From Phycisphaerae bacterium (lineage in GTDB: Bacteria; Planctomycetota; Phycisphaerae; Phycisphaerales; SM1A02), in the NCBI GenBank assembly GCA_002709295.1, contig PAQL01000015.1, positions 1 to 64,000 of the forward strand: a stretch of 64,000 bases of DNA, given 5' to 3'. Below, one piece after another: positions 1,440 to 23,310 of the stretch. Within the stretch, counting starts at the first letter, position 1; the number at the start of each line of letters is the position of its first letter. The notes under the pieces were generated by a model. It worked only from the letters and a program-made list of their open reading frames with translations. It did not search any database and was not told the DNA's origin. Both the position numbers and the translations under genes were made by a program.

Positions 1440-3181
1440 GGCTGGAGGCGGAATCATCTCCGGCTGCTCCCGCCCGGCTGATCCTCCGGATCGCGATCGT
1501 CGTCGCCCTGTCCGCCACGTGCGGTTGCGATGACGGAGGCTCCGGCCCCTCGTCGCAGGCCGGCGATCCGACCCCTTCGTCCACCACCGATCCGAGGGAT
1601 TCGGCTGAAGCACCTCGACCCGACGGTTGGTTCGTCGATGCGGGCGGGTCCTCGGGGGTCGACTTCGTGCTTCGCACGAGACTCGACGATCGTCCGATGC
1701 TTCCCGAGATCGTGGCCGGTGGCGGCGCCGCCGCGGACTTCGATGGTGACGGCCGGCTGGATCTCTACCTCGTCCAGGGCACGGGGGAGGGCGGCAACCG
1801 CGTCTACCGGAATCTGGGGGACTTCCGTTTCGAGGATTCGACCGACGCCGGCGAAGCGTCCGACTCCGGCCGCTTCGGCATGGGTGCCGCCACCGGAGAC
1901 TTCGACGGGGACGGCGATCCCGACCTCTACGTGTCGAACCTCGGACGCGACACGCTTCTTCGCAACGACGGCGGATTCCGCTTCGTCGACGTGACCGATG
2001 CCGCGGGCCTGGGTGACGAGGGACTGTCCGCCAGCGCGACGTTCTTCGACGCCGACGGGGACGGCGATCTCGATCTCTTCGTCACCCGCTACGTGGACTG
2101 GAGCGCCGAGGGGGAACTCGACTGCCGTCAGCCCTCGGGGAAGCCCGACTACTGCGCTCCCAGCCAGTACGACCGGCCGACCTCGGATCTGCTCTATCGC
2201 AACGACGGCGACGGCACCTTCACCGACATCTCGATCGAGAGCGGGATCGCGGGGTCGATGGGCACCGGACTGGGGGTCTCGTTTCTCGACGCCGATGCCG
2301 ACGGCCGCATGGATCTCTTCGTGGCCAACGACGGGATGCCCGACCACCTCTGGCTCAATCGGGGGGATCTGCGCTTCGAGGAGGTCGCGGTTCGAACCGG
2401 ATGCGACCGCGACATCAGCGGGGCGGCGAAGGCCGGCATGGGCGTCGCGATCGAGGACGTCGATGACGACGGCGACTGGGACATGCTGGTCTGCAACCTG
2501 GGCGGGGAGACCGACTCACTCCACATCAACGAGGGCGGTCGCTTCGTCGACGGCACCACGCGGGCCGGTCTGGGGGCGGCCACCCGTCGGTTCACCCGGT
2601 TCGGCCTCGGCCTGATCGACTTCGATCGGGACGGATGGCTCGATCTCTTCGCCGCCAACGGAAGGGTGGGCGTGGGCAATCGCATCAACGATCCCTCCGA
2701 TCCCTACGCCGAACCGGATCTGCTGCTGCGTGGCGATCGGAAGGGGCGATACCGCCAGGTCGAGGAACCGGGAGTCGATCTGGAGATCCCCCGGACCAGC
2801 CGAGGCGCCGTCTTCGCGGACTTCGACGACGATGGCGGCGTCGACATCGTGGTGATCGACCGGGAGGCGCGAGCCAGGCTGTTGCGGAACGAGGTCCCCG
2901 ACGCCGGCAACTGGCTGATCCTGGACGTTCGTGACGCCGGAGGATCTCCGGCGATCGGAGCGACGGTCGCCGTGGAACTCGATGGCCGCACGATTCGACG
3001 CATGGTCCGGACCGACGGCAGCTACCTCACGGCCCGGGATCCGAGGGTCCACGTCGGCATCGGTGATCTCCAGAGGGTCCCCCGCGTGGTGGTCCGCTGG
3101 CCGGACGGCGCAGAGAGGGTTCTCGAGGACGAGCGGGGGGGTCGCATTCTCCGCCTTGATCACCCGGAATCGACCTCCTAG
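1436..3181 (+). CDS. FG-GAP/VCBS repeat lipoprotein with C-terminal ASPIC/UnbV domain, first copy
   Basis: A 581-residue protein. The GTG start at 1436 overlaps the previous TGA (GTGA) and gives a lipoprotein signal ending in SATCGC; the frame is open further upstream, but that part is antisense-like filler over the TPR gene. Residues about 60-470 hold repeated Ca-binding loops of the type DFDGDGxxDLY, the signature of FG-GAP/VCBS beta-propellers. The C-terminal 90 residues match the ASPIC/UnbV domain of CRTAC1-like proteins (WLxLDVRD, RMVRTDGSYL, VHVGIGD, VVRWPDG). It is probably a lipid-anchored calcium-stabilised propeller at the outer face of the cell, working with the TPR lipoprotein encoded just before it. 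Ligand unknown. Confidence 0.88.
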   Translation: MRLEAESSPAAPARLILRIAIVVALSATCGCDDGGSGPSSQAGDPTPSSTTDPRDSAEAPRPDGWFVDAGGSSGVDFVLRTRLDDRPMLPEIVAGGGAAADFDGDGRLDLYLVQGTGEGGNRVYRNLGDFRFEDSTDAGEASDSGRFGMGAATGDFDGDGDPDLYVSNLGRDTLLRNDGGFRFVDVTDAAGLGDEGLSASATFFDADGDGDLDLFVTRYVDWSAEGELDCRQPSGKPDYCAPSQYDRPTSDLLYRNDGDGTFTDISIESGIAGSMGTGLGVSFLDADADGRMDLFVANDGMPDHLWLNRGDLRFEEVAVRTGCDRDISGAAKAGMGVAIEDVDDDGDWDMLVCNLGGETDSLHINEGGRFVDGTTRAGLGAATRRFTRFGLGLIDFDRDGWLDLFAANGRVGVGNRINDPSDPYAEPDLLLRGDRKGRYRQVEEPGVDLEIPRTSRGAVFADFDDDGGVDIVVIDREARARLLRNEVPDAGNWLILDVRDAGGSPAIGATVAVELDGRTIRRMVRTDGSYLTARDPRVHVGIGDLQRVPRVVVRWPDGAERVLEDERGGRILRLDHPESTS

Positions 3182-3259
3182 GAGAGCTTTCCAGGCTCTT
3201 CCGGTGACGTCCGTTCGAAGTCTCTGCAGGAATGCCGGCCCCGATCCGATGAGGTGTTC

Positions 3260-4732
3260 ATGGAATCGCGTCCTTCCGACAACTCATTCGCCGTCCACGG
3301 GATCCCGATCGTCGGATCCGCGTTCCGAGGGGGTCCGGCCCTGATCCTCGCGATCCTGCTGATCTCGATGACCGCGGGCTGTGGCGAGGGTCGGACCGCC
3401 CCACGGCTTCCGTCGGAGGTGGGGGTCGATCCCTTCGTGCACGACACGATCACCCGGACCGCGGATGCGGTCGAGAAGGCCCCCCGAAATCCTCGGGCCT
3501 GGGCCCAGCTCGGCGAGCTCTACTACGCGCATGACTACCTTGAATCCGCCCTCGAGTGCTTCGATGTGGCGGTGGAACTCGGTCCCGAGGACCCGCGCAT
3601 CAGGTACCTTCGGGCGGTGATCCGCAAGCGGCTGGGTGACGATACCGGTGCTTTCGAGGACATCGAGGAGACGATCCGGCTCGATGACTCGACGCCGCAC
3701 GTCCGATGGCGGGCCGCTCTCTGGTATCGCGACGGTGGGAACTTCGAGCGGGCGGAACGCCTGGCGACCGATGCGATGCAGCTTTCCGGCGGGGATCGGA
3801 ACTCCCGACGCACGCTCGCCCTGATCGAACTGGAGGCCGGCCGAGCACGACAGGCGATCCGGCTTCTGCGCCCGATCGTGAAGGCGCGTCCGGATGACCG
3901 GCAGACCCGCACCACGCTGGTCAGGGCGTTGCGACTCTCCGGCGATCTGCCGGCCGCCGAGCGTGAGGCGGTCCTCGCCGGTGATGTCAGGCCCGACTAC
4001 TTCGATCCATGGCTGGATGCAGCGGTCACTCGCCGCACCGATCTTCCCTTCTGGATCCGCCGGGCCCAGAGAATCGCGAACCAGGGTGATCCGGAGACGG
4101 CCAGGACGATTCAGGACTCGGTGCTGAGAAAGTGGTATCCCGAAGCCAGGGAGGTCGACTTCACCGAGGGTGTGATCCTCGTCAGCGAGGGACGTCACGA
4201 CGAGGCCGCGGTGCACTTCGAGGCGCTCGTCGAGGAGCATCCCGACTGGTCCCAGGCGATGAATCGGGCCGCGGCCGCGATGCTGGTCGATTCCGGGACC
4301 GACCCCGACCCGGAGGTCGACCGGCGGGCCCGGAGCCTGCTGGAACGATCCACGGTGATCGAACCCGGGAACCACGTCGCAAGGGTGCTGCTCGTGGACA
4401 TTCTCGTGCGTTCTGATGAGCTCGACGCGGCCCAGCCCCTGATGGAGGAGATCGTGGCCGCGCAGGGTTGGATGCTGGAGCATCGTCTGAAGCTGGCTCG
4501 GATCCAGTTCGAGCGAGGCGATCAGGAGGAGTCCCTGGCGACCCTCGACGATGCGATCGTGATCTTCGGTCCGGTGCCGCCCATCGATCTGGCTCGAGCC
4601 TCGATCCTGATCGACCTCGGGCGGTTGGACGAGGCCGCCACCGCGATCGGTCGTGCCCGGTCGAGACCGAACGTGCCGCAGCAGCAGATCCGGCGACTCG
4701 AGGATCGACTCCGGGAGGCGTCCGCTCCATGA
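3260..4732 (+). CDS. TPR-repeat lipoprotein, second copy
   Basis: A 490-residue protein. The ATG at 3260 follows GAGG by 5 bases; an in-frame GTG at 3254 is an alternative. The N-terminus is positively charged, then hydrophobic, ending in lipobox MTAGC near residue 40. The rest is TPR solenoid (for example LGELYYAHDYLESALECF), with a P-x-YFDPW segment in the middle matching FVDPW in the first copy. It sits 78 bases after the first UnbV gene and overlaps the second UnbV gene by 4 bases, so it repeats the two-gene cassette. Probably an exported scaffold acting with its UnbV partner. The two copies have clearly diverged, so the duplication is not recent. Confidence 0.87.
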   Translation: MESRPSDNSFAVHGIPIVGSAFRGGPALILAILLISMTAGCGEGRTAPRLPSEVGVDPFVHDTITRTADAVEKAPRNPRAWAQLGELYYAHDYLESALECFDVAVELGPEDPRIRYLRAVIRKRLGDDTGAFEDIEETIRLDDSTPHVRWRAALWYRDGGNFERAERLATDAMQLSGGDRNSRRTLALIELEAGRARQAIRLLRPIVKARPDDRQTRTTLVRALRLSGDLPAAEREAVLAGDVRPDYFDPWLDAAVTRRTDLPFWIRRAQRIANQGDPETARTIQDSVLRKWYPEAREVDFTEGVILVSEGRHDEAAVHFEALVEEHPDWSQAMNRAAAAMLVDSGTDPDPEVDRRARSLLERSTVIEPGNHVARVLLVDILVRSDELDAAQPLMEEIVAAQGWMLEHRLKLARIQFERGDQEESLATLDDAIVIFGPVPPIDLARASILIDLGRLDEAATAIGRARSRPNVPQQQIRRLEDRLREASAP

Positions 4733-6393
4733 TCACCATGAGCTGTTCGCGGTCCATCCTGCGCAGGGGAGTGCTCACGGCCGTCCTCGCGGCGTCCGGC
4801 TGCGGTCCGGTCGAGGAGGAGTCGACCTCGACCGACTGGTTCGGTGAGGAGGCGCTGCGGCGGGGGATCGACTTCACGCTCGTGACGGACATGGACGAGG
4901 AGCCCTGGGCTCCCGAGATCATCGTGGGTGGAGGCGGGGCGATCGACTTCGACGACGACGGCCTTCTCGACCTCTATCTCCTCCAGTCGAGCGGAGACGG
5001 CGGCAACCGTCTGTTCAGGAATCGAGGGGACGAGGGTTTCGAGGATGTCACGGCATCCGCGGGTGTGGGCCACGAGGGGTACGGATCGGGAATGGCCACC
5101 GGTGACTACGACGGAGACGGCGACGTCGACATGCTCGTGACCAACCTTGGTCCCGACGTCCTCTATCGCAACGAGGGGGACGGCACCTTCACCGACGTGA
5201 CCGAGGAGGTCGGGCTCGGGGACGATGGTTGGGGCTCCAGCGCCGTGTTCTTCGACATGGACGCGGATGGAGACCTGGATCTCTTCGTCACCCGCTATCT
5301 GGACTGGAGTCCGGAACGGGAGAAGCGATGCCCGAATCCGAGGGGGCTTCCCGAATACTGCCACCCGGAGAGCTTCGAGGCTCCCACCACCGACCTGCTG
5401 TACCGAAACGACGGCCCGGACGGCTTCCTGGACGTGTCGGAGGAGAGCGGCATCGATCGGGTCCGGGGCAACGGACTGGGAGTCGTGGCCACGGACTTCG
5501 ACGCCGACGGCCGTGTCGACCTCTTCGTCGCCAACGACAAGAATCCCGACCGGCTCTGGCGCAACCTCGGCGACGGACGGTTCGAGGAGTCCGGTCTGCG
5601 GATGGGGTGCGATCGTGATCTCACCGGAATCGCGAAGGCGGGGATGGGCGTCGCGGTCGAGGACATCGACGACGACGGCGACTTCGACCTGATCGTCTGC
5701 AACGTCAACGGCGAGACCGATTCCTTCTATCTCAACGAAGGGGGGCGCTTCGTCGATTCGACCAATCGATCCGGCCTCGGGTCCCCGACCCGGCGCTACA
5801 CCCGCTTCGGGCTGGGCTTCATCGATTTCGACAACGACACCAGACTCGACTACTTCGCCGCCAACGGGGCGGTCTCCGCGAACCTCGATGCGGCCGAGGG
5901 CTCGGATCCCTACGCCGAGCACAACCTCGCGATGCGGGGGCTGGCCGACCGCGTGGGGTTCGTCGAGAGCGAGTCTCCGGGAGGCATCACCGGACTGCCC
6001 CGGATGACCAGCCGGGGAGCCGTCTTCGGGGACTTCGACAACGACGGCGGCATCGATGTCGGAGTGATCAACCGTGACGCCCGCTTCCATCTGCTTCGCA
6101 ACGTGGTCCCGGATCGGGGCGGCTGGCTGCTGGCGGATGTCCGTGATGATGCGGGGGCGCCGGCCCTCGGGGCGGTGGTGCGGTTCGAACTCGGGGACCG
6201 GGTGCTCACGAGGGTCGTCAGGACCGACGGGAGCTACATGACCGCGGGTGATCCCCGGGTGCATGTCGGGCTTGGTGATTCGAGGCTGGTGCCCGCCATC
6301 GAGGTCTCATGGCCCGACGGCAGGAGCCGGAGGATGGAGTCGATTCCGGTCGATCGGGTGATCCGGATCGATCCCCCGGCCGCGGGATCCTGA
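4729..6393 (+). CDS. FG-GAP/VCBS repeat lipoprotein with C-terminal ASPIC/UnbV domain, second copy
   Basis: A 554-residue paralogue of the protein at 1436-3181. The ATG at 4729 overlaps the previous TGA (ATGA); another ATG at 4738 is possible. The signal ends in lipobox LAASGC at about residue 25. Propeller repeats with DFDxDGxxDLY and DxDxDGDxDLF calcium loops fill residues 50-440, and the ASPIC/UnbV block closes the protein (VRTDGSYMTAGDPRVHVGLG, VSWPDG). Both paralogues keep a pair of conserved cysteines in a C-x6-10-YC segment in mid-protein, which could form a disulphide after export. It ends 10 bases before a convergent gene with no obvious terminator between them. Confidence 0.88.
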   Translation: MITMSCSRSILRRGVLTAVLAASGCGPVEEESTSTDWFGEEALRRGIDFTLVTDMDEEPWAPEIIVGGGGAIDFDDDGLLDLYLLQSSGDGGNRLFRNRGDEGFEDVTASAGVGHEGYGSGMATGDYDGDGDVDMLVTNLGPDVLYRNEGDGTFTDVTEEVGLGDDGWGSSAVFFDMDADGDLDLFVTRYLDWSPEREKRCPNPRGLPEYCHPESFEAPTTDLLYRNDGPDGFLDVSEESGIDRVRGNGLGVVATDFDADGRVDLFVANDKNPDRLWRNLGDGRFEESGLRMGCDRDLTGIAKAGMGVAVEDIDDDGDFDLIVCNVNGETDSFYLNEGGRFVDSTNRSGLGSPTRRYTRFGLGFIDFDNDTRLDYFAANGAVSANLDAAEGSDPYAEHNLAMRGLADRVGFVESESPGGITGLPRMTSRGAVFGDFDNDGGIDVGVINRDARFHLLRNVVPDRGGWLLADVRDDAGAPALGAVVRFELGDRVLTRVVRTDGSYMTAGDPRVHVGLGDSRLVPAIEVSWPDGRSRRMESIPVDRVIRIDPPAAGS

Positions 6394-8186: not shown

Positions 8187-8762
8187 TCAGGAGGACGGTG
8201 TGGGAAGGGGGGCGAGCACCCCCTTGTGCTGGAGACACCGGGCCAGAGCCGCCCGGATCCGCTGGAGTCGCTTCTTGACGGTCTCCCGGTTGAGATCGGT
8301 TCGTCCGGCGATCCGCTCGGTGCTCATCTCCTCCCGGTAGTGGAGGTCGATGAGGGTTCTGGAGGGTTCGGGCAGGGCGCCCAGGCAGTCGTCGAGGGCC
8401 TCGAGCTTCTCCGGCCAGGTGTCACCGGAACGCTCGCTGATCTCGTCGAGTCTCGCATCCAGATGGGCGATGACCTCCTCCTCGCAATGAAGGGGGAGCC
8501 GACTGTTCCGTCGGTAGTGCACGAGGATGTGGTTTCGGGCGATCCCCCTCAGCCAGGGGCCGAAGAGGCGGGTCTGATCGAATCGGTCCAGAATCCGCCA
8601 GGCGGTGACCATGGTCTCCTGGTGGATGTCCTCGATGGCCCCGGAATCCTTCACCTGGGCCCGAATGAAGGCCAGAAGCATCGGGGAATGTTCCCGGACG
8701 AGGATCTCGAATGCGGTGCGATCGTTCTCGATGGCGGGGCTCCTGGAGCGGTCCTTGAACAC
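8187..8762 (-). CDS. RNA polymerase sigma-70 family factor (ECF type)
   Basis: A 191-residue protein. Region 2 spans about residues 15-80 ([41 protein letters not shown]); region 4 spans about 125-180 ([18 protein letters not shown], then the HTH with [13 protein letters not shown]). Regions 1 and 3 are absent, as in ECF factors. The GTG at 8762 is the most upstream start that does not run into the divergent hslV promoter. Its product probably directs transcription of a stress or envelope regulon and is held by the anti-sigma protein encoded 14 bases downstream. The length and motifs resemble the sigma family expanded in Planctomycetes and Verrucomicrobia. Confidence 0.85.
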
Positions 8763-8819
8763 CCCTTGTCGGGATTTCCGGGTTCGGGGACACGTGGTTC
8801 GTCGGATCCAACGAACCGG

Positions 8820-8825
8820 TACCCT
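8820..8825 (+). promoter_or_regulatory. -10 box (TACCCT) of hslV, leaderless type
   Basis: TACCCT ends 6 bases before the second of two adjacent ATGs (8832). Transcription would then start at that codon, favouring 8832 over 8829 as the hslV start. No clear -35 box. Confidence 0.5.
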
Positions 8826-8831
8826 TCGATG

Positions 8832-9407
8832 ATGCCTCAGAACACCCTGGAATCGATCCACGCGACCACCATCGTCTGCGTCCGGGACGAGGCCTCCGTG
8901 GCCATCGCCGGCGACGGGCAGGTGACCCTGGGGGCGGTGGTTGCCAAGTCGTCCGCCTGCAAGATCCGAAGACTCGATGATGTCGGGCACGACCGGGCCG
9001 GAGTCCTGGTCGGATTCGCCGGCGGAGCCTCCGATGCATTCGCGCTGCTCGAGCGTTTCGAATCGAAGTTGAAGGCCACGCCCACCCAGCTGCTCAAGGC
9101 GACCGCCGAGCTTGCAAGGGACTGGCGGACGGACCGGGCGCTTCGACGGCTCGAGGCGATGATGATCGTCGCCGATCTGGAGTCGATGCTGATCGTCAGC
9201 GGGCAGGGGGATCTGATCGAACCCGACGACGGGATCGCCGCGATCGGTTCCGGAGGCCACTACGCCCTCGCAGCGGCTCGGGCTCTGAAGCGACGAAGCG
9301 ATCTCCCGGCCTCGGAGGTCGCGACCGAGTCGATGCAGGTGGCCGGAGAGATCTGCATCTACACCAACACCACCATCTCGCTGGAGACGCTCACTCGTCA
9401 GGGGTGA
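8832..9407 (+). CDS. hslV: HslV, peptidase subunit of the HslUV protease
   Basis: A 191-residue Ntn-hydrolase. The mature N-terminal threonine lies in [10 protein letters not shown] (Thr12), so an 11-residue propeptide must be removed; the same HATTI layout is known from the Bacillus HslV/CodW. Further family motifs are [57 protein letters not shown] and AGEICIYTN. With HslU it forms a two-ring ATP-dependent cytoplasmic protease. No hslU lies beside it, unlike the usual hslVU operon. ATG 8829 is a 1-codon-longer alternative; the promoter position favours 8832. Its 3' end overlaps the convergent ferredoxin-like gene by 17 bases. Confidence 0.95.
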
Positions 9408-9696
9408 GCGGGGGGTCCCGGTCGGGGGCGGTCTCCGGAGTCCGCTCGCCGGTCCTTCGATACCGGGTCCGCAGGGTCGCATACTCCGCGGGAGACACCG
9501 GAAGGTCCATGGGCTCGCCGTCCACGTGCTGCTGGTGGAGCTTCTTCAGAAAAGGGACGCACCACTGGCATCCGGTGCCCGCTCCCAGGCAGTCCGCCAT
9601 GCGGCTGGCGACCGGCGGGTCCTCGCGGGTCACGAAGTTGCGAAGCTTCCTGAGGCTCACCCGGAAGCAGAGGCAGACATGATCGTCGGGTTCCAT
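9391..9696 (-). CDS. BFD-like [2Fe-2S] domain protein
   Basis: A 101-residue protein. A CxC pair near the N-terminus (HVCLCFRVS) and GAGTGCQWC about 33 residues later give the C-x-C...C-x2-C cluster of the BFD-like [2Fe-2S] domain known from bacterioferritin-associated ferredoxin and from NirB/NifU proteins. It is probably a small cytoplasmic electron carrier or iron-release protein. The C-terminal 35 residues are polar and proline-rich. ATG 9696 was chosen because upstream in-frame codons run into the neighbouring gene. Its last 17 bases overlap the end of hslV tail to tail. No bacterioferritin gene is visible nearby. Confidence 0.75.
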
Positions 9697-10779: not shown

Positions 10780-12639
10780 ATGCAGGAACTGGACACGCTC
10801 GTACGAATGGCCGCCCGGCGACTCGCCTTCACTCGATTTCTCGAGTGTCTGGTGCTGGTCGGCGTGTTCGGACTCGGAGCCCTTCTCGTCTGGACGGTCC
10901 TCTCCCGGGTGCTGCCGGTGCTGGCGACTCCATGGTGGATCCCCGCCGCGGTGGTCGGCGGTCTGATCCTGGTCGTCTCCATCCTGATCGGCTGGAGATC
11001 GGGTCGTGACCGGGTATCGGTGGCGGTGGCGGTCGATGATCGTCTCGGTCTCGATGACCGTCTTTCCACGGCCTTGCAGCTGGCCGATCGCGATGATCCG
11101 TTCGCGGTGGCCGCCGTGGCCGATGCGAAGCGGATCGCCTCCGATCCCTCGATCCGCGCCCGGGTCCGCGAGGCGTTCCAGCCCGACGCTCCCCACGGGT
11201 GGTGGGTGGCTTCGGTGTTGATCGTCGCCCTCGCAGGTGTCTGGACCATCGTGCCGCAGATCGACTACCTCGCCGCCTCGCAGAGGGACGAGGGCGGCGC
11301 CACCGCCGCGGCCCGCATGGAGACGAGGTCGCAGGTCGAGGAGATCATCGCCTCGGTCGAACAGGATGGTGACGGAGAGCTGGCCCCCGAGATCCAGGAG
11401 GCGCTCTCCGAGCTCGCCGATTCCGAGTTCGCCGCCGATCCCGACCAGCCCGAGATGACTCCCGAGGAGGTCCGCCGCGAGGCGCTTCGTCGGGTCGGAA
11501 GCATGGAACAGAAGATGCAGGAGCTTCTCGACGGCGAGGAGGCACGGCTCGACGAGACCCTGCGTGATTCACTCTCGGATCTGAACCCGGGCGAACTCGA
11601 GGATGCCGATGCCAGGCAGCTGGCCGAGGCCCTCGAGGCGGGGGACTTCAAGGAGGCCCTGGAGGCCTTCGACAAGCTCGCGGACAAGATCGACTCCGAC
11701 GGCATGACCGAGGATGAGAAGGCGCAGCTTCAGAAGGAGCTCGACGCCCTCGCGGAGGAACTGGACCGGCTCGCGGAGGATTCCGCGGCGCTCGAGGACG
11801 CCCTGCGTCAGGCCGGCCTGGACGGAGATCTCGCAAAGGACCCGGAGGCGTTGAAGAAGGCCATGGAGAACGCCACGATGAGCGAAAGCCGTCGCCAGGC
11901 GATCGAGGAGATGATCAAGTCCCGCTCCTCGGCATCCGATGCCCTCCAGAACCTCGCCGAGTCCATGCAGCAGATGGCTCAGCAGTGCGAGAACGGTCAG
12001 CAGCAGGGGCAGCAGGGCCAGCAGAGTCAGCAGGGCCAGCAGCAGGGGCAGGAGACCCTCAGCGAACTCGAACGGGCGCAGCAGATGCTCCAGCAGGCCC
12101 GGGCCGCTCAGGGGCAGTGCCAGAACGCCTGTGACAAGATGGGCTCCGGACTGTCCAAGTGGGCGGCGGGGCTTCCACAGGACGGCCAGGGTCAGGGCCA
12201 GGGTCAGGGCCAGGGTCAGAACGGCGCCGGCGGCTTCGGCAACCGTGGCCAGGGTGGCGGAGGGGATGCACCCATCGCACCAACGCCCAGCGGCACCGTC
12301 GATCAGCGCGAGAAGGTCGAGAATCGGGGCGGTGACATCATCGCTCGCGAGATGATCGAGGGCGAGGTGGTCGTGGGCGAGTCCAAGGCCGCCCTGAAGC
12401 GGATCGCGGATCGCATCGCCAAGGGCGAGGAGGAGGGGATCGGCGAGGATCCGGTGCCGCCGCATCTTCGCGATGTCCATCGTCACTACTTCGGCGAGGT
12501 TGAGAAGCGCATTCGAGCGGTCACCGCGGAGAAGGAGACCGCCGGCAAGGCGGACGCCGCACCCGCGAAGGGATCCGAAAAGGGCTCCGGGTCCGGTGAG
12601 GACCCGGGCACGTCGAGCGAGCCGGCCTCGGGCGAATGA
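10780..12639 (+). CDS. Membrane protein with long coiled coil and Gln/Gly repeats
   Basis: A 619-residue protein with a strong Shine-Dalgarno site (GGAGG, 5 bases before the ATG). Two membrane spans at about 22-43 and 53-70 are followed by a charged loop, a third span near 143-162, and a long acidic helical region (180-400) rich in Glu, Ala and Leu. Residues 405-430 are Gln-rich (QQQGQQGQQSQQGQQQGQ) and 465-475 a GQGQ run. The C-terminal part has a compact segment (DPVPPHLRDVHRHYFGEVEK) and a Gly/Ser/Glu tail. Proteins of this build occur beside MoxR/VWA genes in planctomycetes; function unknown. As first gene of the operon and 4 bases overlapped with the next, it may organise the complex. 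Confidence 0.75.
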   Translation: MQELDTLVRMAARRLAFTRFLECLVLVGVFGLGALLVWTVLSRVLPVLATPWWIPAAVVGGLILVVSILIGWRSGRDRVSVAVAVDDRLGLDDRLSTALQLADRDDPFAVAAVADAKRIASDPSIRARVREAFQPDAPHGWWVASVLIVALAGVWTIVPQIDYLAASQRDEGGATAAARMETRSQVEEIIASVEQDGDGELAPEIQEALSELADSEFAADPDQPEMTPEEVRREALRRVGSMEQKMQELLDGEEARLDETLRDSLSDLNPGELEDADARQLAEALEAGDFKEALEAFDKLADKIDSDGMTEDEKAQLQKELDALAEELDRLAEDSAALEDALRQAGLDGDLAKDPEALKKAMENATMSESRRQAIEEMIKSRSSASDALQNLAESMQQMAQQCENGQQQGQQGQQSQQGQQQGQETLSELERAQQMLQQARAAQGQCQNACDKMGSGLSKWAAGLPQDGQGQGQGQGQGQNGAGGFGNRGQGGGGDAPIAPTPSGTVDQREKVENRGGDIIAREMIEGEVVVGESKAALKRIADRIAKGEEEGIGEDPVPPHLRDVHRHYFGEVEKRIRAVTAEKETAGKADAAPAKGSEKGSGSGEDPGTSSEPASGE

Positions 12640-13706
12640 CACGAGCGATCGGGAAGATCCTGGCCGCGTACCTGCTGGTCACCCTCGGCCTCGGTTGCGG
12701 CGAGGATCCGGATCGACCGGAGGTGGTCGCCTACGTCTCGGCCGACCGCGCGATCGCGATCCCCGTTCTCGAGGCGTTCACCCGTGAGACGGGCATCAGG
12801 GTCCGTCCGCTCTTCGACACCGAGGCCACCAAGACCACCGGTCTGGCGAATCGAATCCGCCGGGAACGGGATCGTCCCCGGGCCGACGTCTTCTGGAGTT
12901 CGGAACCCTTCGCGGTCGAGCAGCTGGCCTCGGAGGGCCTTCTGGCCCCGGCCGTGCATCCGCTGCTGGAATCACATCCCCGGGAGTGGCGACGTCCCGA
13001 TGATCGATGGTTCGCCTTCGCGGGTCGGGCCAGGGTGATCGCATTCGATCCCGAGCGGATCCCGGTCGAGGATCTGCCCGGTTTCTGGTCCGACCTTGTC
13101 GATCCCCGCTGGAACGGAAGGATCGCGATGGCGGATCCCCGCTTCGGCACCACCCGCGGGCACATCGGTGCGATCGAGGTGCTGGGCGAGCTCGGACCCT
13201 CGAAGCTCTCCTTCGAGGACTGGATCGAGGGCCTCGGTCGCAACCGGGTGCGTCTCATGCCGGGTGGCAACGCGGCCACCGTCGATGCGGTCGTGCGCGG
13301 AGAGGTCCTGCTGGGGCTCACCGATTCCGATGATGTCCGGGCGGTGCGTCGCCGCGGCGTCGAGATCGGCGCGATCGCCCCCCGGCATCTTGCCGAGGGT
13401 GTGCCCGACGGCGGCACGATGCTGGTCCCCAATGCCGCCGGCGTGGTCGAGGGTTCCGAACATCCGGATCTCGCGGCGAGACTGGTCGCATTCCTCGCCT
13501 CCGCCGAGGTCGAGCGCATGCTCCACGATTCGCCCAGCGGGAACCTTCCGATCGCGCACCCGACGATCCTCGACGACGAGCCTGAAGCAGCGGACTCGAT
13601 CCGCGCTCCGGACCCCCTGGTGGTGTCGATCCCCGACGTCGCCGGGGGCATGGACCGGGCCGTCGATTCGGCGATGGACCGGTTTCTCGATCGGGGCGAG
13701 CCGTGA
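12636..13706 (+). CDS. Iron(III)-type ABC transporter solute-binding lipoprotein
   Basis: A 356-residue protein with lipobox LGLGC near residue 21. The body matches family 1 extracellular solute-binding proteins of the FbpA/FutA type: an opening beta strand (VVAYVSADRAIAIPVLEAF), KTTGLANRIRRE, ADVFWSSEPF, then DPRWNGRIAMADPRFG and a C-terminal helical lobe. These proteins bind ferric iron or, in related members, other anions and phosphonates; the ligand cannot be read here. The ATG overlaps the previous stop (ATGA) and its stop overlaps the permease-NHL gene, so binding protein and permease are one unit. No ATPase gene is present in the window. Confidence 0.85.
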   Translation: MTRAIGKILAAYLLVTLGLGCGEDPDRPEVVAYVSADRAIAIPVLEAFTRETGIRVRPLFDTEATKTTGLANRIRRERDRPRADVFWSSEPFAVEQLASEGLLAPAVHPLLESHPREWRRPDDRWFAFAGRARVIAFDPERIPVEDLPGFWSDLVDPRWNGRIAMADPRFGTTRGHIGAIEVLGELGPSKLSFEDWIEGLGRNRVRLMPGGNAATVDAVVRGEVLLGLTDSDDVRAVRRRGVEIGAIAPRHLAEGVPDGGTMLVPNAAGVVEGSEHPDLAARLVAFLASAEVERMLHDSPSGNLPIAHPTILDDEPEAADSIRAPDPLVVSIPDVAGGMDRAVDSAMDRFLDRGEP

Positions 13707-16204
13707 TCGGGGTTCCGGGGTGGCGGGTCTGGAGATCGATCGCCTGGTTGGCGTTGATCGCGATGCTGCTTCCGGTGCTCGCGGGCATCGCGGCCGCGGT
13801 CCCGGACTCGGAGGCCGTCGATCCCGAGACGCTCGGGTTCCGAGGCGGGGAGGTCCTCCTCGCCACGATCGCATGGTCGACGGGGCTCGCGGCGGTCGCG
13901 GTGGTGCTGGCGCTGTTTCCCGCCTCCCGGATTCGTCGCTGGGCCCGGGACGGTCGAGGTCTGATCCTCGCGGCGTGGTTGATTCCGATCTTCCTGCCGC
14001 CGGCGCTCCTCTTCGATGCCTGGTGGATCCAGGCGGGCCCCGACTCCTGGATCGGACGGGCCGCCGGCGAGTCCGATCGGGTGCCGTTGCTGCGGAGGGG
14101 CGTGCTGGCGATCGGACTGCTCGGCACCGGCGTGCCCCTGGCCACCTGGATCATGGCCGCGCTGCGAAACCCGGCCGCGGATTCCGATCGGATGCTGATG
14201 CTCCAGGATCGACCCGGCATCGGGGTGGCGGGCAGGAACGCATGGCGTCGACATCGCTGGATGCTGCTGATCACCTGGGCGGCCACCGCCGGCATCATCG
14301 CCGGTCTCACCGTGCCCTTCGACCTCGCCCAGGTCCGGACCTGGGGATTCGAACTGCGCACCCTCGACACCCGTGGCGCCACGCCCGGAACGCTCCTCCG
14401 CGTGGGTGGTCCGGGTCTCCTGGTTGCGCTGGCGGCCTCCCTGGCGATCATTCGCATCGGAGCCTTCGGTCACCGGGAGGGACGCGGGCCTTCGCGACCG
14501 CCGATCACGATTCGAACCAAAGGCGATCGTCTGCGGGGACTCTGTTCGCTGGTGATGTGGATCCTGCTGGTGGGGGGACCGCTGACGATGCTGGTCACCC
14601 GTTCCCTTGATCAGGATCTGAGCACCACCCGCGCCCTGCACGGCGAAGCCGCGCTGGGGACCCTGATCCTGGCCGCGGGGGGGGGCGTTCTCGGCGCCGT
14701 CACCGCACTGGGGTTCACGATCTGGAGGGCGGGCACTCGAGGAACGCGAGAGGCGAGGGGTTGGATCTGGGTGGTCCCCCTGCTGGGCATGGTCGCCTTC
14801 ATGCCCGCCACCTTGATCGCGGTCGGTGTCGAATCCGCCTGGAATCGGCCGGGGGTGGAGCGGTTGATCGACGGACCACTGCCGACCATTCTGGCCGTCG
14901 CGGCTCGTACCGCCATCGTCCCCGCCATCATCGGCGCGGTCCTCGGCGGTTCGATCGGCGACCTGCCGCGTCTGGACGCTCCTCGAGGACTGCGAGACGG
15001 CTGGCGGGCGGCCCGTCCCGGGTTCAACGCCGCTCTGGCGGCGGGATTCCTGGTTGGAGGTACGCTGGCCGCCGGGGAGATTCCGGTGACGGCAAGGGTC
15101 CGTCCTCCGGGCTTTCCGACCCTGACCGGGACCCTGCTCGACGCGATGCACTACCAGTACGCCGACTCCGTCCTGCCGGTGATCGTCCTGCTCGTGATCG
15201 CGGCGGGCATCGCCGCGGTGCTCGCGGTGCGACTCACGGGGGTCCTGCGCAGCTCCGTTCCCGCCGTTCTGGGCATGGCATCCCTGCTGGTGCTGCCCTT
15301 CGGGTGTGATGCGGGTGAGGAGTCCTCGGAGCGCAACCCGGTCGAGCACCGGATCGCCTTCGGAAGGCCTGGCAACATCGAGGGCCGTTTCGACTATCCA
15401 CGCGCGATCGCCCTCGATGAATCGCGCGGTCGGGTCTACGTGGTGGACAAGAGCGCGAGGGTGCAGCGGTTCTCGCTGGACGGCGAACTCGAGACGTGGT
15501 GGCGGATGCCGGCCTACGAGAACGGGAAGCCGACGGGGATCGCCGTCGACGAGGACGGCCGGGTCATGGTGGCCGACACTCATGAACAGCGCATCGCGAT
15601 CTTCTCGCCCGAGGGCGAGCTGCTCGAGACCCATGGACGTCTGGGGACCGAACCGGGGGAGTTCATCTATCCGACCGATGTGGTCCGCGGCCCGGACGAC
15701 ACCTGGTTCGTCTCGGAGTACGGGGGCAACGACCGGATCCAGATCTTCGACTCGGACTGGAATCCGATCGGGGTGATCGGTTCGTTCGGCGAGGCGGTGT
15801 TCGAGACCGAGGGGGAGCTCCTGCTCGCACGACCCCAGTCGATCTTCTGGGATGCCGGACGGGAGGAGCTCTACATCGCCGATGCGGTGAATCATCGCAT
15901 CGTGGTCACCGATGCCACGGGCAGGCGTCTCCGGATCCTCGGAGGCCCGGGGATCGATCCCGGACGTCTGAGCTATCCCTACGACCTCGCACTCGAACCC
16001 GACGGAACCCTGCTGGTCGTGGAGTTCGGGAACAACCGGATACAGCGACTCGACGCCTTCGACGGTCGTCCCCTCGGGGTGTGGGGAGGAACGGGAGTCG
16101 AGCCCGGACGACTGCGATATCCCTGGGGTCTCGATGCCGGAGACCGCACCATGGTGGTCCTGGACAGCGGCAACAGCCGGGTGCTGGTCGGAGACCGTCC
16201 GTGA
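13703..16204 (+). CDS. ABC transporter permease fused to a six-repeat NHL propeller
   Basis: An 833-residue continuous frame. Residues 1-505 carry about 12 membrane spans. The segment LAAGEIPVTARVRPPGFPTL, followed by a last span, matches the end of iron(III)-type (FbpB) permeases. A positively charged turn follows (RLTGVLRSS, 510-518), then a hydrophobic stretch ending in VLPFGC (Cys535), which looks exactly like a lipoprotein signal. Residues 560-833 contain six NHL repeats (for example NKPTGIAVDEDGR-type, YPYDLALEPDG, NNRIQRLDAF), a full propeller. The topology puts the propeller outside the cytoplasmic membrane. Either it is one fusion protein or an internal GTG start (15227) also yields a separate NHL lipoprotein. 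The fused arrangement is unusual. Confidence 0.82.
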   Translation: MIGVPGWRVWRSIAWLALIAMLLPVLAGIAAAVPDSEAVDPETLGFRGGEVLLATIAWSTGLAAVAVVLALFPASRIRRWARDGRGLILAAWLIPIFLPPALLFDAWWIQAGPDSWIGRAAGESDRVPLLRRGVLAIGLLGTGVPLATWIMAALRNPAADSDRMLMLQDRPGIGVAGRNAWRRHRWMLLITWAATAGIIAGLTVPFDLAQVRTWGFELRTLDTRGATPGTLLRVGGPGLLVALAASLAIIRIGAFGHREGRGPSRPPITIRTKGDRLRGLCSLVMWILLVGGPLTMLVTRSLDQDLSTTRALHGEAALGTLILAAGGGVLGAVTALGFTIWRAGTRGTREARGWIWVVPLLGMVAFMPATLIAVGVESAWNRPGVERLIDGPLPTILAVAARTAIVPAIIGAVLGGSIGDLPRLDAPRGLRDGWRAARPGFNAALAAGFLVGGTLAAGEIPVTARVRPPGFPTLTGTLLDAMHYQYADSVLPVIVLLVIAAGIAAVLAVRLTGVLRSSVPAVLGMASLLVLPFGCDAGEESSERNPVEHRIAFGRPGNIEGRFDYPRAIALDESRGRVYVVDKSARVQRFSLDGELETWWRMPAYENGKPTGIAVDEDGRVMVADTHEQRIAIFSPEGELLETHGRLGTEPGEFIYPTDVVRGPDDTWFVSEYGGNDRIQIFDSDWNPIGVIGSFGEAVFETEGELLLARPQSIFWDAGREELYIADAVNHRIVVTDATGRRLRILGGPGIDPGRLSYPYDLALEPDGTLLVVEFGNNRIQRLDAFDGRPLGVWGGTGVEPGRLRYPWGLDAGDRTMVVLDSGNSRVLVGDRP

Positions 16205-16297: not shown

Positions 16298-19277
16298 ATG
16301 GCTGCTGAGCTTCCCATCACGTTCGAGCACCCGCTTCTCCTGCTGGTGGCTCTCCTGATCGTGCCGATGATCCTGCTCGCCAGGATCGGGGCCGCGGGTC
16401 AGGGGCGTGGGAAGCTCGTCGCATCACTGGTCGTTCGTTCCCTTCTGCTTGGGTTGCTGGCGGTGGCCCTCGCCCGGCCCTCGGTGGTCGACCGAGGCGA
16501 GTCGCTGACCCTGATGGTCGTGGCGGACATGAGCCAGTCGATCCCGCAGTCGCTTCAGAGGGACAGTGGGGAGTTCCTCGCCCGGGTGGAGGAGGCCAAG
16601 AGGAACGAGGAGGACCGGATCGGCGTGGTCACGGTCGCCGAGGCCTCCGAGATCCGGCAGACTCCGGATCAGAACGCGAGGATCCAGCTCGACCATGCCG
16701 GAGACCCCGCGGCCACGAATCTCTCCGCGGCGGTGCGGACCGCGATCTCGCTCCTGCCCACCGACACCGCGAACCGGATCCTCCTGGTCTCGGACGGAAA
16801 CGAGACCGAGGCCAGCGTGCTGGAGGCGATCGAACTGGCGACCGCCAACGACATCCCGGTCGATGTCCTCCCGATCGAGTACGAGTACGAGCGTGAAGTC
16901 GTCTTCGAGGGACTCAAGGCCCCCAGCCGAGCGAGGCTCGGGCAGTCGATCGACCTTCGTGCGTTCATCGACTCCAGCACGGAGACCGAGGGCACGCTCC
17001 GGCTCCGACGCAACGGTCGGGTCGTGGATCTGGACCCCGACGGCCCGGGCGACGGCATCACCCTCAGGCTTCAGGCCGGATCCAATCCGATCTCGATCCC
17101 CGCGACCCTCGACATGGGCGGCGCCCAGAGATTCACCGCGGTCTTCGAACCCTCCGATTCCGAGGCCGACTCGCTCGAGGAGAACAACATCTTCGAGGCG
17201 GTCACCTTCGTCTCCAGCGACGGTCGGGTGCTGGTGGTCTCCGACGACCCCACCGAGGTCGAGGGACTGGTCAGGGCCCTGGTCTCGGGAGGACTTGAGG
17301 TGGTGGTCGAGGACACCACGGCCCTCGCCGGTGGTTCCGCCTATCTGAACGGGTTCGATGCCGCGATCCTCTCCAACGTCGCCCGCTGGGAGCTCGACAT
17401 CGAGGCGGATCGGGGCTTGAGGTCCTACGTGCACGATCTCGGTGGTGGACTGATCATGCTCGGTGGGGACCGGTCCTTCGGGGCCGGCGGCTGGATCGAT
17501 TCCGAGACCGCCAAGGCGCTTCCGGTCAGACTCGATCCGCCCCAGGAACGCCAGCTGACCCGGGGGGCCCTCGCCCTCATCATGCACTCCTGCGAGATGC
17601 CCCAGGGCAACTACTGGGGACAGCGCACCGCGATCTCCGCGATCGAGGCTCTGAGCAGTCTCGACTACGTGGGGATCATCACCTTCAACTTCGCCGCCCA
17701 GGGGCCCAACATCAATGGTGCCGGCTGGGCGTTCCCCATGCAGCTCGCCGGCGACAAGACCGCCGCGATCGCGGCGGCCAAGTCGATGACCATCGGGGAC
17801 ATGCCGTCCTTCGCGCCGTCGATGCAGGTCGCCCTCCAGGGATTGATGGGGGTCAATGCCGGCCAGCGGCACGTCATCGTCATCTCGGACGGAGACCCGT
17901 CGGTCCCGTCCCAGCAGCTGCTGGACCAGTTCGTCGCGGGCGGCGTCACGATCACCACCATCATGGTGGGGGGGCACGGGACCCAGGTCGATCGCAACAA
18001 CATGCAGGGCGTCGCCGAATACACGGGCGGCACCTTCTACAACGTGACCAACCCGAAGGCGCTTCCGAAGATCTTCATCAAGGAGGCGACGCTGGTCTCC
18101 CGCTCCCTCATCCAGGAGGGCGACTACCAGCCACGGGTGATCCCCTCCCTCGACGGACCCACCCGAGGAGTCACCGCGGCGCCGTCGATCGGGGGCTTCG
18201 TCCTCACCGTCCCTCGTGACGGTCTCGCCAAGGTTCCGATCGACATTCCCGTCGAGGACGGTGACGACCCGCTGCTGGCGGCCTGGAATCACGGACTGGG
18301 CAAGGCGGTCGCCTTCACCAGCGACGTCGGCGCCCGCTGGGCCGGCGACTGGACCTCGTGGTCGGGATTCCAGCCGTTCTGGGAGCAGGTGGTCCGGTGG
18401 TCGATGCGGCCCGCTTCGCCTTCCAACCTCTCCATCCGGACCTCGATCGACGATGAGGGGCGAGCGGTGGTCGAGGTCGAGGCGCTCGCCGCCGACGGCA
18501 GCTTCGCCGACTTCCTGCCCGGTGAGGCCAGGGTGCTGGCTCCCGACGGGACCGCGGCACCGGTGCCGCTCCAGCAGGTGGGACCGGGTCGATACCGCAC
18601 CGAGTTCGCCGTGGATCAGCAGGGCGCCTATCTCGTGAACGCGGTCTTCCCCGGAGACGAGGAGGGGGAGGCCGCCAGCGTGCAGGCGGCGATCGCGGTG
18701 CCGTACCGCAAGGAGTTCGCAACCACCCGCGACAACCGGGTGCTCCTCGAGATGATCGCCGAACGCACCGGGGGTCGGATTCTCGACGCCCGGGACGACC
18801 TCGAACTGATCGATCCGTTCGATCGGACCGGTCTCGAGATGCCGATGTCCCCGACCCGGATCTGGGACATCGTGGTGGTCATCGCGGCCGGTCTCTTCGT
18901 GATGGACGTCGCGGTCCGCAGGATCAGCTTCGAGCGACGACGTCGCCGCGAGCGCAGGGAGAAGGCCGGAGGCTCGACGGTCGAGGCCTGGAAGACGGCC
19001 CGTCGTCGCGCCTCCCGCAGCACCGACTCCGGGGACGAGGAGAACGTCGCCTCGACGAAGGTCGAGGTCGACGAGGACGCCACCCCGTCCTTCTCGGTCG
19101 GGGACGATCTCCAGTCGACCCGGGAGGATGATGCCGAAGCCGCGGGCCGTCGCGCCTCGCGTCGCGAGACGTCCTCCGGGGAGCAGCGACAGCAGGAGTC
19201 CGACGATGCCGAGGACATGACCAGTCGTCTTCTCCGGGCGAAGAAGCGGGCCTCCGGAGGCGGAAGGGACGATCGCG

Positions 19278-19285
<8 letters not shown>
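16298..19285 (+). CDS. Large von Willebrand A membrane protein with glutamine-amidotransferase-like region
   Basis: A 995-residue protein. Two N-terminal membrane spans (about 10-28 and 44-60) resemble the BatA opening. A first VWA domain with metal site DMSQS begins near residue 78. Residues about 310-410 have the fold pattern of class-I glutamine-amidotransferase-like domains (RVLVVSDDPTEVEGLVRAL, GGGLIMLGGDRSFGAGGW), and a second VWA-like segment follows (HVIVISDGDPSVPSQQLL). A late span near 850 is followed by a 120-residue cytoplasmic tail of Arg/Glu/Ser. GGAGG lies 9 bases before the ATG. It is probably a chaperone-type partner of the MoxR ATPase encoded next (8-base overlap). Substrate unknown. 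Confidence 0.85.
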
Positions 19286-20350
<1,065 letters not shown>

Positions 20351-20354
<4 letters not shown>

Positions 20355-21310
20355 CCCGCTTCCCCGATGGACCTCCGCCCCGTTCGGAGCGGCCCACGTC
20401 GGTCGATCAGCTGATCGACTCCCGGCTCATGGCCAGACTCGACCACCTCGACGTGGTCAGTCGCAAGATCTTCAGCGGTCGGGTCCAGGGGGAGCGAAGA
20501 AGCAAGCGCCGGGGACAGAGCGTCGAGTTCGCCGACTTCCGGCCCTACGTGGCCGGAGACGATCTCCGGTTCGTCGACTGGAACATCTACGGTCGACTCG
20601 ATCGCCTCTTCCTGAAGATCTTCCTCGAGGAGGAGGATCTCTCCCTTCACGTGGTGCTCGACGCCTCGGCGAGCATGAACTGGGGCGACCCCTCCAAGTT
20701 CGAGTTCGCCCGTCGACTGGCCATGGCCCTCGGCTACATCGGCCTGACCAACCAGAACCGGGTGTCGATGTCCGCCTTCGGGGGGATCGATCGGGACGGG
20801 AACCCCGCCGGTCTGCAGAGGCTCTCGAATCTTCGCGGTCGACGCCGGACCCACGAGGTCGGGAAGTGGCTGATCGATCTCGAGCCCGGAGGAGGGGATG
20901 AGTTCGAGAACGCGATGAAGACCATCGCTCTCTCTCGACAGGGACGCGGGGTGATGGTCGTGATCAGCGACTTCCTGCACAAGGGTGGTTTCGAGACCGG
21001 TCTCCGCTACATCGCGGGTCGGGGTTACGACGTGTTCGCCATGCAGCTGCTGTCCCCGCAGGAGATCGATCCGCTCGCCCACGGCATGAGCGGTGATCTC
21101 CGACTGGTCGATCTCGAGGACGACGACCAGGCCGAGGTGACGGTGAATGCCGCGGTCCTACGGGGATACAAGGACCGGCTCGACACATGGTGCGGGCGGC
21201 TGCGGGATTTCTGCATCCGGCGGAGCATCATGCACATGATCGTGGACACCGGAATGGATCTCGACACCCTCATGCTCGACTACCTGCGTCGAAGAGGGCT
21301 GCTGCGTTGA
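20351..21310 (+). CDS. DUF58 domain protein (MoxR/Bat operon)
   Basis: A 319-residue protein. The family core is clear: GRVQGERRSKRRGQSVEFAD near residue 43, FRPYVAGDDLRFVDWNIYGR, then a VWA-like fold opening VVLDASASMNWG (D-x-S-x-S metal site, about 102-106) and VMVVISDFL. DUF58 proteins are conserved partners of MoxR ATPases; their exact role is not established. No membrane span is predicted by eye, so it is probably cytoplasmic. The ATG overlaps the moxR stop by 4 bases and its TGA overlaps the TTG start of the next gene. Confidence 0.93.
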
Positions 21311-23310
21311 GCTGGCTCACTCCTCTCTTCGGCGGGATCGTCCTCGCGGTGGTGGTGCCGTCGCTGGTCGCCCTGTACTTCCTGCGTCTTCGACGCACCG
21401 AGCGGGCGATACCCAGCACCATGCTGTGGAAGAGGTCGGTCGAGGATGTCCGGGCCAATGCGCCGTTCCAGCGACTCCGGATGAACCTGCTGCTTCTCCT
21501 GCAGATCCTGCTGCTCGTCCTGCTGGGCATCGCCCTGATGCAGCCGCGGCTTGATTCCGGCGACCTTCGCGACGGTCGCACCGTCCTCCTGATCGACCGT
21601 TCCGCGTCGATGAACGTTCCGGATGCCGACGAGTCGGGTCGCACCCGGCTCGAGCTCGCCAAGGAGGCGGCCATCGAACGGATCGAGGCTCTTCATTCCG
21701 GGGGGCTCTTCGGAAGCGGGGCGGAGATCATGGTCATCGGATTCTCCGACGATCCGGCGATCCGCACCCCCTTCACGGATTCGCAGCAGGCCGCGATCGA
21801 CGCGGTCGAAGGCATCGAACCGACCGATGGTCGGAGTCTGATCGGCCCTGCGCTGGAGCTGGCCCGGGCCTACACCACCGTGGTGGATCCGGACGCCCAG
21901 TCCGGTCCCGGCGAGACGCCCGCGGCGCTGGAGCTCTGGTCCGACGGGCGGGTGGCCGACCTTCCCGACCAGGTGCTCAAGGTGGGCGAGACCCTCGAGT
22001 ACCACCAGATCGGGAATCCGGACACCGCCAACGTGGGGATCGCCTCCCTCGCCGCGGAACGTCCCTACGACCAGCCGGGTCGGATCCAGGTGTTCGTCGC
22101 GGTCGAGAATCCCGACCCGGCCGCCACCGCGGTCGATCTCCAGCTGGCGGTCGACGGCGTGGTGAGATCCATCACCCCGAAGCCGGTCGAGGTTCCCGCC
22201 GCTCGCGAGGAACCGGGCATCGGACTGATCCCCGGGCGTCGGCAGATCAGTTTCACCCCGATCGAACAATCCAGCGGGGCCGTGATCGAGGTCTCGATCC
22301 TCGGCGAGGACGGCCTGGCCTCGGACAACGTCGCGGCCCTGGTGGTGCCTCCGTCGAAACGACTTCGCGTGGCCCTGGTGGGTGACCGGCGGCCGGTGCT
22401 CCGGTCCCTGCTCGAGGGCATGCCGCTGGAGTCGCTGCAGATCTTCACGCCGTCCATGTTCCAGCAGATGGTCCAGGATCGGGAGCTCGAGGACTGGGAC
22501 GTGGTGATCCTGGCCGATGCCGATCTCGATGTGGACACGCTCCCCCCCGGGCGGTACCTGTCCTTCGGCTCGGCGCCCCCGATGGAGAGTCTCGATCCCT
22601 TCGGTGAACCCGCGACCGGAGTGCTGGTCCGCAGGACCAGGGACGGTCATCCCGTGATGAGGATGGTCAATCTGGACGACCTCTACGTCGGATCCCTCGA
22701 GAAGCTCGTGCTCGGGACCGGAGTCTCGGTGATCGTGGAATCCGGGGACGGCCCGATGGTGATGGAGGTCGATCGCGGTCCGGTTCGGATGATCCACGTC
22801 GCCTTCGATCCGCTGGACTCGAACTGGCCGTATCTGCGATCTTTCGTGAACTTCACCGCCAACGCCATCGAGTATCTGGGGACCAGCGGGGATGCCCTGA
22901 CCATGCGTTCCGGGCAGCCCGGAGGACCGTTGACGGTCAGGCTGCCCGGTGGGGCGACCGACGCCCGGGTGACCCCGCCCGATGGTGAATCGACGCCCCT
23001 CACCATCGACTCCTCCGGCGACGTCTCCTGGGGACCGGCACGACACACCGGACTGCACGAGTTCTCATGGGTGATGCCCGGTGATTCCGAGCGTCGGACG
23101 AGGCTGATCGCCGTGAATCAGTTCGATCGTGATGAACGGCTCGTGGCCTCGGCGGAGTCGGTCGCGATCGGCACCGAACGGCTTCAGGGCCGGGTGGTGC
23201 GGGCATCGGGAACCCGCTGGCAGGATCTCTGGCCATGGATGCTGGCGGCCGCACTCGCCCTCTCCGTCGTGGAGTGGGTGCTCTGGCAGAGACAGGTCGG
23301 TGCGGGCTGA
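21307..23310 (+). CDS. BatA-like VWA membrane protein
   Basis: A 667-residue protein. TTG at 21307 overlaps the previous stop (TTGA) and gives the expected BatA opening, SWLTPLFGGIVLAVVVPSLV, then RLRRTERAIPSTMLW and a second span (LLLLLQILLLVLLGIALM). The VWA domain opens with LLIDRSASMNVPDADES (metal site D-x-S-x-S), and the last 25 residues form another span (WPWMLAAALALSVVEW). The protein thus has two N-terminal helices, a long extracytoplasmic part and a C-terminal anchor. It is the last gene of the 12.5-kb operon and ends 9 bases before the convergent TPR-YggX gene with no terminator hairpin seen. Confidence 0.85.
   Translation: MSWLTPLFGGIVLAVVVPSLVALYFLRLRRTERAIPSTMLWKRSVEDVRANAPFQRLRMNLLLLLQILLLVLLGIALMQPRLDSGDLRDGRTVLLIDRSASMNVPDADESGRTRLELAKEAAIERIEALHSGGLFGSGAEIMVIGFSDDPAIRTPFTDSQQAAIDAVEGIEPTDGRSLIGPALELARAYTTVVDPDAQSGPGETPAALELWSDGRVADLPDQVLKVGETLEYHQIGNPDTANVGIASLAAERPYDQPGRIQVFVAVENPDPAATAVDLQLAVDGVVRSITPKPVEVPAAREEPGIGLIPGRRQISFTPIEQSSGAVIEVSILGEDGLASDNVAALVVPPSKRLRVALVGDRRPVLRSLLEGMPLESLQIFTPSMFQQMVQDRELEDWDVVILADADLDVDTLPPGRYLSFGSAPPMESLDPFGEPATGVLVRRTRDGHPVMRMVNLDDLYVGSLEKLVLGTGVSVIVESGDGPMVMEVDRGPVRMIHVAFDPLDSNWPYLRSFVNFTANAIEYLGTSGDALTMRSGQPGGPLTVRLPGGATDARVTPPDGESTPLTIDSSGDVSWGPARHTGLHEFSWVMPGDSERRTRLIAVNQFDRDERLVASAESVAIGTERLQGRVVRASGTRWQDLWPWMLAAALALSVVEWVLWQRQVGAG

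Follow-up and report, generated by a model that had tools for sequence, protein, structure and literature searches.

How one open reading frame (ORF) comes to encode both an ATP-binding cassette (ABC)-type permease and a lipoprotein is the question raised by a gene of the Phycisphaerae bacterium assembly GCA_002709295.1, found in a window of 64,000 nt (contig PAQL01000015.1, positions 1-64,000, forward strand). The ORF (13703-16204, + strand) starts with GTG, runs for 833 codons without an internal stop, and shares the TG of its start with the TGA of the upstream substrate-binding protein (SBP) gene (12636-13706). An earlier note, made from the window's sequence alone, had read it as a permease joined in frame to an NHL lipoprotein, and this observation is confirmed. 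On the sequence comparisons below, this ancient, class-wide fused gene most likely works as a polyprotein that arose after loss of an ATPase gene, its permease probably no longer served by a canonical ABC ATPase in the usual manner (a rough probability of two in three, 0.66).

The open frame, the NHL match and the FbpB-like fold bear out the joining of the two proteins. No Pfam family, BPD_transp_1 included, matched the permease half in a scan of the window's proteins, but a profile built from 15 homologues matched FbpB of T. thermophilus (9j4r_A, E = 1.9e-11, profile positions 30-497). The same chain was matched by an AlphaFold2 model based on the 15-homologue alignment (Foldseek against PDB, TM-score by target 0.72), in which the permease consists of twelve long helices (6+6), the two-half fold of type I ABC importers of the FbpB/iron subfamily. 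The NHL half matches Pfam NHL (1.8e-22), is modelled as a six-bladed propeller built of NHL repeats, and returned NHL propellers besides the FbpB chain in the Foldseek search. Between the halves lies a low-confidence stretch of the model (low pLDDT, 514-543), which contains much of what the earlier note called a complete lipoprotein signal, a description that holds: a basic n-region (RLTGVLRSS, residues 510-518) is followed by a hydrophobic core and lipobox (VPAVLGMASLLVLPFGC, residues 519-535) ending in Cys535 (codon 15305-15307). The note's placing of the propeller outside the membrane is probably also right.

The fusion is widespread. It was found at full length in ~30 of 60 relatives searched, belonging to the window's own family and to other families of its order, and an alignment query of a genome collection gave 80 loci, mostly titled as metagenome-assembled genomes (MAGs) of Phycisphaerales, Phycisphaerae, Planctomycetota or Sedimentisphaerales; a single-sequence query of genome contigs gave no matches, while the alignment query of contigs did. 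Removal of duplicates left 98 distinct fused homologues, mostly from Phycisphaerae MAGs. The fusion is thus ancient and class-wide in Phycisphaerae, not the product of a recent stop loss. The alternative that an assembly or sequencing error hides a stop or frameshift at the joint, named in the earlier note as one way its reading could fail, is practically nil: the window derives from a 43-contig assembly of 95% completeness, there is no sign of error, and the same fusion is seen in numerous MAGs, in 98 distinct sequences altogether, on which grounds this candidate was rejected. The other possible failure, close relatives that all carry two separate genes, did not appear either, relatives being overwhelmingly fused. 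In one homologue (L125) the permease half is split into overlapping frames, probably by a sequencing frameshift, with the joint intact.

At the internal lipobox, Gly, Ala or Ser precedes Cys in 98/98 distinct fused homologues; in four of them (L089, L115, L125 and L024), all with a lipobox, the Cys was assigned by direct reading. In a 15-row alignment no column from 483 to 554 other than this Cys is invariant, the length of the linker following it varies across the family, and a basic n-region is present in nearly all homologues. The strict pattern [LV][ASTVI][GAS]C (PMC8048626) is matched by 32% of internal lipoboxes and by 29% of N-terminal SBP lipoboxes from the same loci, and [GAS]C by 100% and 96%, respectively, so the internal lipobox matches genuine ones in quality. 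The chain therefore has the n-region, hydrophobic core and lipobox of a substrate of Lgt and Lsp, except that the signal is internal in the fused form and N-terminal in split forms and outgroups (see below). LspA and Lgt genes were found in the window's genome.

By analogy with FbpB, the chain would insert as a 12-helix permease with both termini of this part inside (N-in/C-in). The built-in signal would then start a second translocation, carrying the propeller to the periplasm, after which Lgt would lipidate Cys535 and Lsp would cut between residues 534 and 535, releasing equal amounts (1:1) of permease and of a lipoprotein propeller held in the inner membrane. Retention in the inner membrane is suggested by Asp at +2, following an E. 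coli rule that may not hold in planctomycetes. Bacterial polyproteins cut by signal peptidase are rare. One such protein, Bradyrhizobium FbcH, is a cytochrome b/c1 polyprotein for which cleavage by signal peptidase has been demonstrated. It likewise pairs a polytopic membrane protein with a second, in-frame downstream protein that carries a signal peptide of its own, but it involves signal peptidase I and a cytochrome, whereas here a lipobox (signal peptidase II) and a propeller are found and cleavage is predicted. A limited literature search found no described polyprotein with an internal lipobox.

The main rival, unlikely but the strongest competitor for the fate of the chain, is that the fusion stays uncleaved, the signal acting, lipidated or not, as a 13th membrane anchor that tethers the propeller on the outer face of the permease. 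A single frame is kept in nearly all of the clade, and the uncharged run ahead of Cys (median 17 residues) is in some sequences long enough to span the membrane. Such tethering is known from OpuA of Lactococcus lactis, in which the permease C-terminus is likewise followed by a hydrophobic segment, a short linker and an outside domain, the anchoring segment and linker joining the substrate-binding and transmembrane domains (PMC11065425). However, the OpuA linker and anchor sequences are unconserved even within an order (PMC11065425), unlike the joint of the fused family with its conserved lipobox, and the domain attached here is a beta-propeller lacking an SBP fold, the SBP being encoded by a separate gene. 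A plain anchor needs no Cys, yet one preceded by Gly, Ala or Ser is present in every fused homologue, and in split relatives the propeller evidently works detached from the permease. Universal retention of Cys at the joint speaks for Lgt/Lsp processing rather than an uncleaved fusion, and also against the earlier suggestion that the propeller sits on the permease itself, which presupposes no cleavage.

Natural splits mark the same joint. In four relatives (L114, L040, L039 and L169) permease and NHL protein are separate genes, the latter always opening with its own lipoprotein signal. In L114 a single TGA closes the permease frame, and the NHL gene begins a few codons further on without a change of frame; in L040 the stop of the permease overlaps the NHL start (ATGA); in L169 the two genes are adjacent and in L039 (G025:C61) ~4 kb separates them. 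The permeases of these four and the fused permeases form one clade (Shimodaira-Hasegawa-like approximate likelihood-ratio test, SH-aLRT, 100), in which L169, L040 and L039 nest among fused sequences, which suggests that they split again later, precisely at the joint; L114 is the most basal member of the ATPase-less clade. The simplest reading would be a single fusion and then three or more fissions at this point, L114 being either pre-fusion or a fourth fission.

What lay between the two genes before fusion is suggested by four outgroup Planctomycetota operons (L177, L185, L190 and L193), in which the order is SBP, permease, ABC ATPase, NHL lipoprotein, followed in 3/4 by VWA, MoxR, DUF58 and BatA genes. 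The outgroup ATPase gene occupies exactly the position of the fusion joint. Nearly all loci related to the window have the order 10780-type membrane protein, SBP, permease::NHL, VWA/GATase1-like, MoxR, DUF58, BatA, and no ABC ATPase signature was found by sequence pattern search in ~100 ATPase-less loci, although the same pattern does detect the ATPases of outgroup loci. On the window's 175-kb contig there is no strong PF00005 match, the single match being weak and partial. An ABC ATPase subunit is missing from the related loci; one could still act in trans. The loci form a series (ATPase present/genes split; ATPase absent/split; ATPase absent/fused), suggesting that the ABC ATPase gene between the permease and NHL lipoprotein genes was lost, which made these neighbors and allowed them to join, and that the permease, the lipoprotein SBP and the VWA-MoxR-DUF58-BatA genes would have outlived this loss. 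The stop-codon loss invoked by the earlier note is plausible as the last step, given the single in-frame TGA of L114, but incomplete, as the intervening ATPase gene had to go first.

The cytoplasmic coupling loops of the permease changed as well. ATPase-adjacent relatives have E-A-A...G...L-P in both permease halves, while the fused set has E-L-L..L-D-G in both, with both Ala positions lost and the Pro of loop 1 retained in 15/92 fused compared with 11/15 ATPase-adjacent sequences. An acidic residue stands ahead of Gly in most fused sequences and, for each loop, in one ATPase-adjacent sequence (counts in Table 1; Fisher p = 4e-13 for loop 1 and 3e-10 for loop 2, values that overstate the case because sequences rather than independent events were counted). 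L114 already has both Asp while retaining part of the old EAA motif, the loops of Sedimentisphaerales are intermediate, and the change spans the whole clade and both permease halves; the loops would thus have been rebuilt around a paired L-D-G. Lacking both the EAA motif and the ATPase, the system should not be classed as a full ABC transporter, and its permease has probably given up the usual coupling to a canonical ABC ATPase. Permease and SBP may still work as an importer, the substrate probably being a metal or oxyanion, judging from SBP_bac_6 homology.

How such an importer is energized admits two accounts, both held tentatively. The slightly favored one, itself short of even odds, is that the ATPase is lost for good and that permease, SBP and propeller now rely either on the MoxR/VWA machinery or on secondary transport (ion-coupled or facilitated), via the symmetric Asp pair in the former coupling loops, permease and propeller being made as one Lsp-cut polyprotein. 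Somewhat less probable is an ordinary ABC transporter borrowing an orphan ATPase encoded elsewhere, e.g. G000:C7:30532-31572 (L189:8982-10094), a MalK/FbpC-like ABC ATPase conserved across Phycisphaerae with no permease detected beside it. This protein is the best match in the window's genome to an outgroup operon ATPase (43% identity, full length), no BPD permease was found near it in 17 genomes, and the loops of the fused permease retain the Gly of the EAA motif. Against such borrowing, many Phycisphaerae genomes that lack the fused gene carry the orphan just the same, five genomes with the operon (G014, G010, G038, G022 and G025) yielded no close ortholog, and both loops lack E-A-A and carry the new Asp. 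The orphan could serve several permeases, and nothing links it to the fused one. A relocated partner ATPase at this locus was dropped as the main account, as it does not track the operon, and is kept as a rival for energetics.

Several points weigh against the polyprotein reading and the origin proposed for it. Nearly all homologues come from MAGs, only four outgroup operons with both ATPase and NHL genes were read, the ATPase-adjacent comparison set includes iron importers from outside this operon, and the permease tree, built without the EAA columns, is a quick search with long branches. Lsp substrates normally carry their signal at the N-terminus, and cleavage behind twelve helices is a prediction here. 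In L201 (G348:C229) permease and NHL genes are separate and adjacent with no ATPase between them; this permease has an EAA motif of the canonical type and clusters with relatives that carry the ATPase, and the contig is only 4 kb, such that an ATPase may lie just outside. Finally, 87/97 fused genes have in-frame starts with basic residues ahead of the core, and use of Shine-Dalgarno (SD) sequences is modest in these genomes.

The in-frame starts speak for internal initiation, in which ribosomes starting at an in-frame GTG or ATG near the joint would make an ordinary lipoprotein, the fused chain being a read-through or minor product. NHL genes of split relatives also begin near the candidate joint starts, and the window has an in-frame GTG at 15227, 26 residues ahead of Cys, which the earlier note thought could release a separate lipoprotein. 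An in-frame start with an SD-like sequence is, however, present in the 27-codon window ahead of the core in only 9% of fused genes, the same as the background rate inside the permease (9%), compared with 31-67% at the true starts of SBP, VWA, MoxR and DUF58 genes (BatA was left out of this scoring because its start is uncertain). Given the modest SD use, this makes internal initiation less likely. In addition, 10/97 fused genes lack a usable start codon, and a stop codon at the joint, which would be cost-free if translation began internally, is almost always absent. Release of a lipoprotein from GTG 15227 is thus poorly supported, and two-product expression appears improbable, clearly more so than an uncleaved fusion.

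Each part of the proposed polyprotein is known. What is new is how they are combined: one chain comprises an ABC-type permease, a conserved internal lipobox and a lipoprotein, and the importer operon has no ATPase. The FbpB-type iron permease system (FbpBC of T. thermophilus, 9j4r, with an FbpA-like SBP) shares the 12-helix two-half fold and a neighboring SBP_bac_6-type SBP; the fused system differs from it in lacking an operon ABC ATPase, in its rebuilt EAA loops and in the added C-terminal lipoprotein signal and propeller. In bat/MoxR-VWA operons, MoxR, DUF58 and BatA/VWA genes lie side by side (PMC5700661); the same genes are neighbors here, preceded in a conserved operon by SBP and permease genes. 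MoxR-vWA-beta-propeller ternary systems also combine these three components in one locus but have the propeller fused to the vWA protein (PMC7159879), whereas here the permease carries it and the best match of MoxR is to the ordinary AAA_3 family. A fusion conserved across a class, with split forms marking where the parts separate, and a series along which the coupling loops of an ABC importer are altered in parallel with the loss of its ATPase gene, make the role of an ABC permease without an ATPase directly testable.

Table 1 Features of the fused gene and its conserved neighbors in the window.
Feature	Position	Strand	Evidence
619-aa membrane/coiled-coil protein, first conserved operon gene; true start may be later	10780-12639	+	most related loci have a homologue here; no Pfam family reaches the cut-off
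Substrate-binding lipoprotein, SBP_bac_6 type	12636-13706	+	PF13343 1.7e-19; own lipobox LGLGC; 5′ of permease in great majority of related loci
Permease half, residues 1-508, 12 transmembrane helices, FbpB-like	13703-15226	+	profile match, AlphaFold2 model, Foldseek
Asp169, first EAA-type coupling loop (LQDRPG)	14207-14209	+	acidic in 88/92 fused vs 1/15 ATPase-adjacent
Asp425, second EAA-type coupling loop (RLDAP)	14975-14977	+	acidic in 86/97 fused vs 1/15 ATPase-adjacent
In-frame GTG, proposed internal start	15227-15229	+	no SD-like sequence; no joint enrichment in family
Internal lipoprotein signal, n-region 510-518, core/lipobox 519-535	15230-15307	+	sequence, family conservation, SBP lipobox control
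Short flexible linker, Asp at +2 from Cys	15308-15352	+	low pLDDT 514-543; length varies within family
Six-bladed NHL beta-propeller, residues 551-831, plus stop	15353-16204	+	Pfam NHL, AlphaFold2 model, Foldseek
VWA/GATase1-like protein, next gene in conserved operon	16298-19285	+	Pfam; gene order in related loci
MoxR-type AAA+ ATPase	19278-20354	+	PF07726 2e-62; gene order in related loci
DUF58 protein	20351-21310	+	Pfam; gene order in related loci
BatA/VWA membrane protein, start probably later	21187-23310	+	Pfam; gene order in related loci

The cognate SBP gene that neighbors the permease, as expected of a type I ABC importer, is absent near the fused gene in family f4 (L051, L054) and L113, where the fused gene has a different neighborhood and lies by itself, apart from the SBP/VWA/MoxR operon. 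A MAG in this group labelled Vicinamibacteraceae probably contains a mis-binned planctomycete contig.

Elsewhere in the window, at positions 120-6393, a TPR gene with an FG-GAP-repeat gene behind it occurs twice in tandem, apparently a duplication (genes judged from translations). An ORF at 8226-9407, whose C-terminal part resembles the HslV protease subunit by eye, is overlapped on the opposite strand by a sigma-factor-like ORF (8187-9482). In the same genome, oligopeptide-type ABC transporter genes occur twice with identical scores (G000:C8:123626-130674 and G000:C38:21037-28085), reflecting either true duplication or assembly redundancy.

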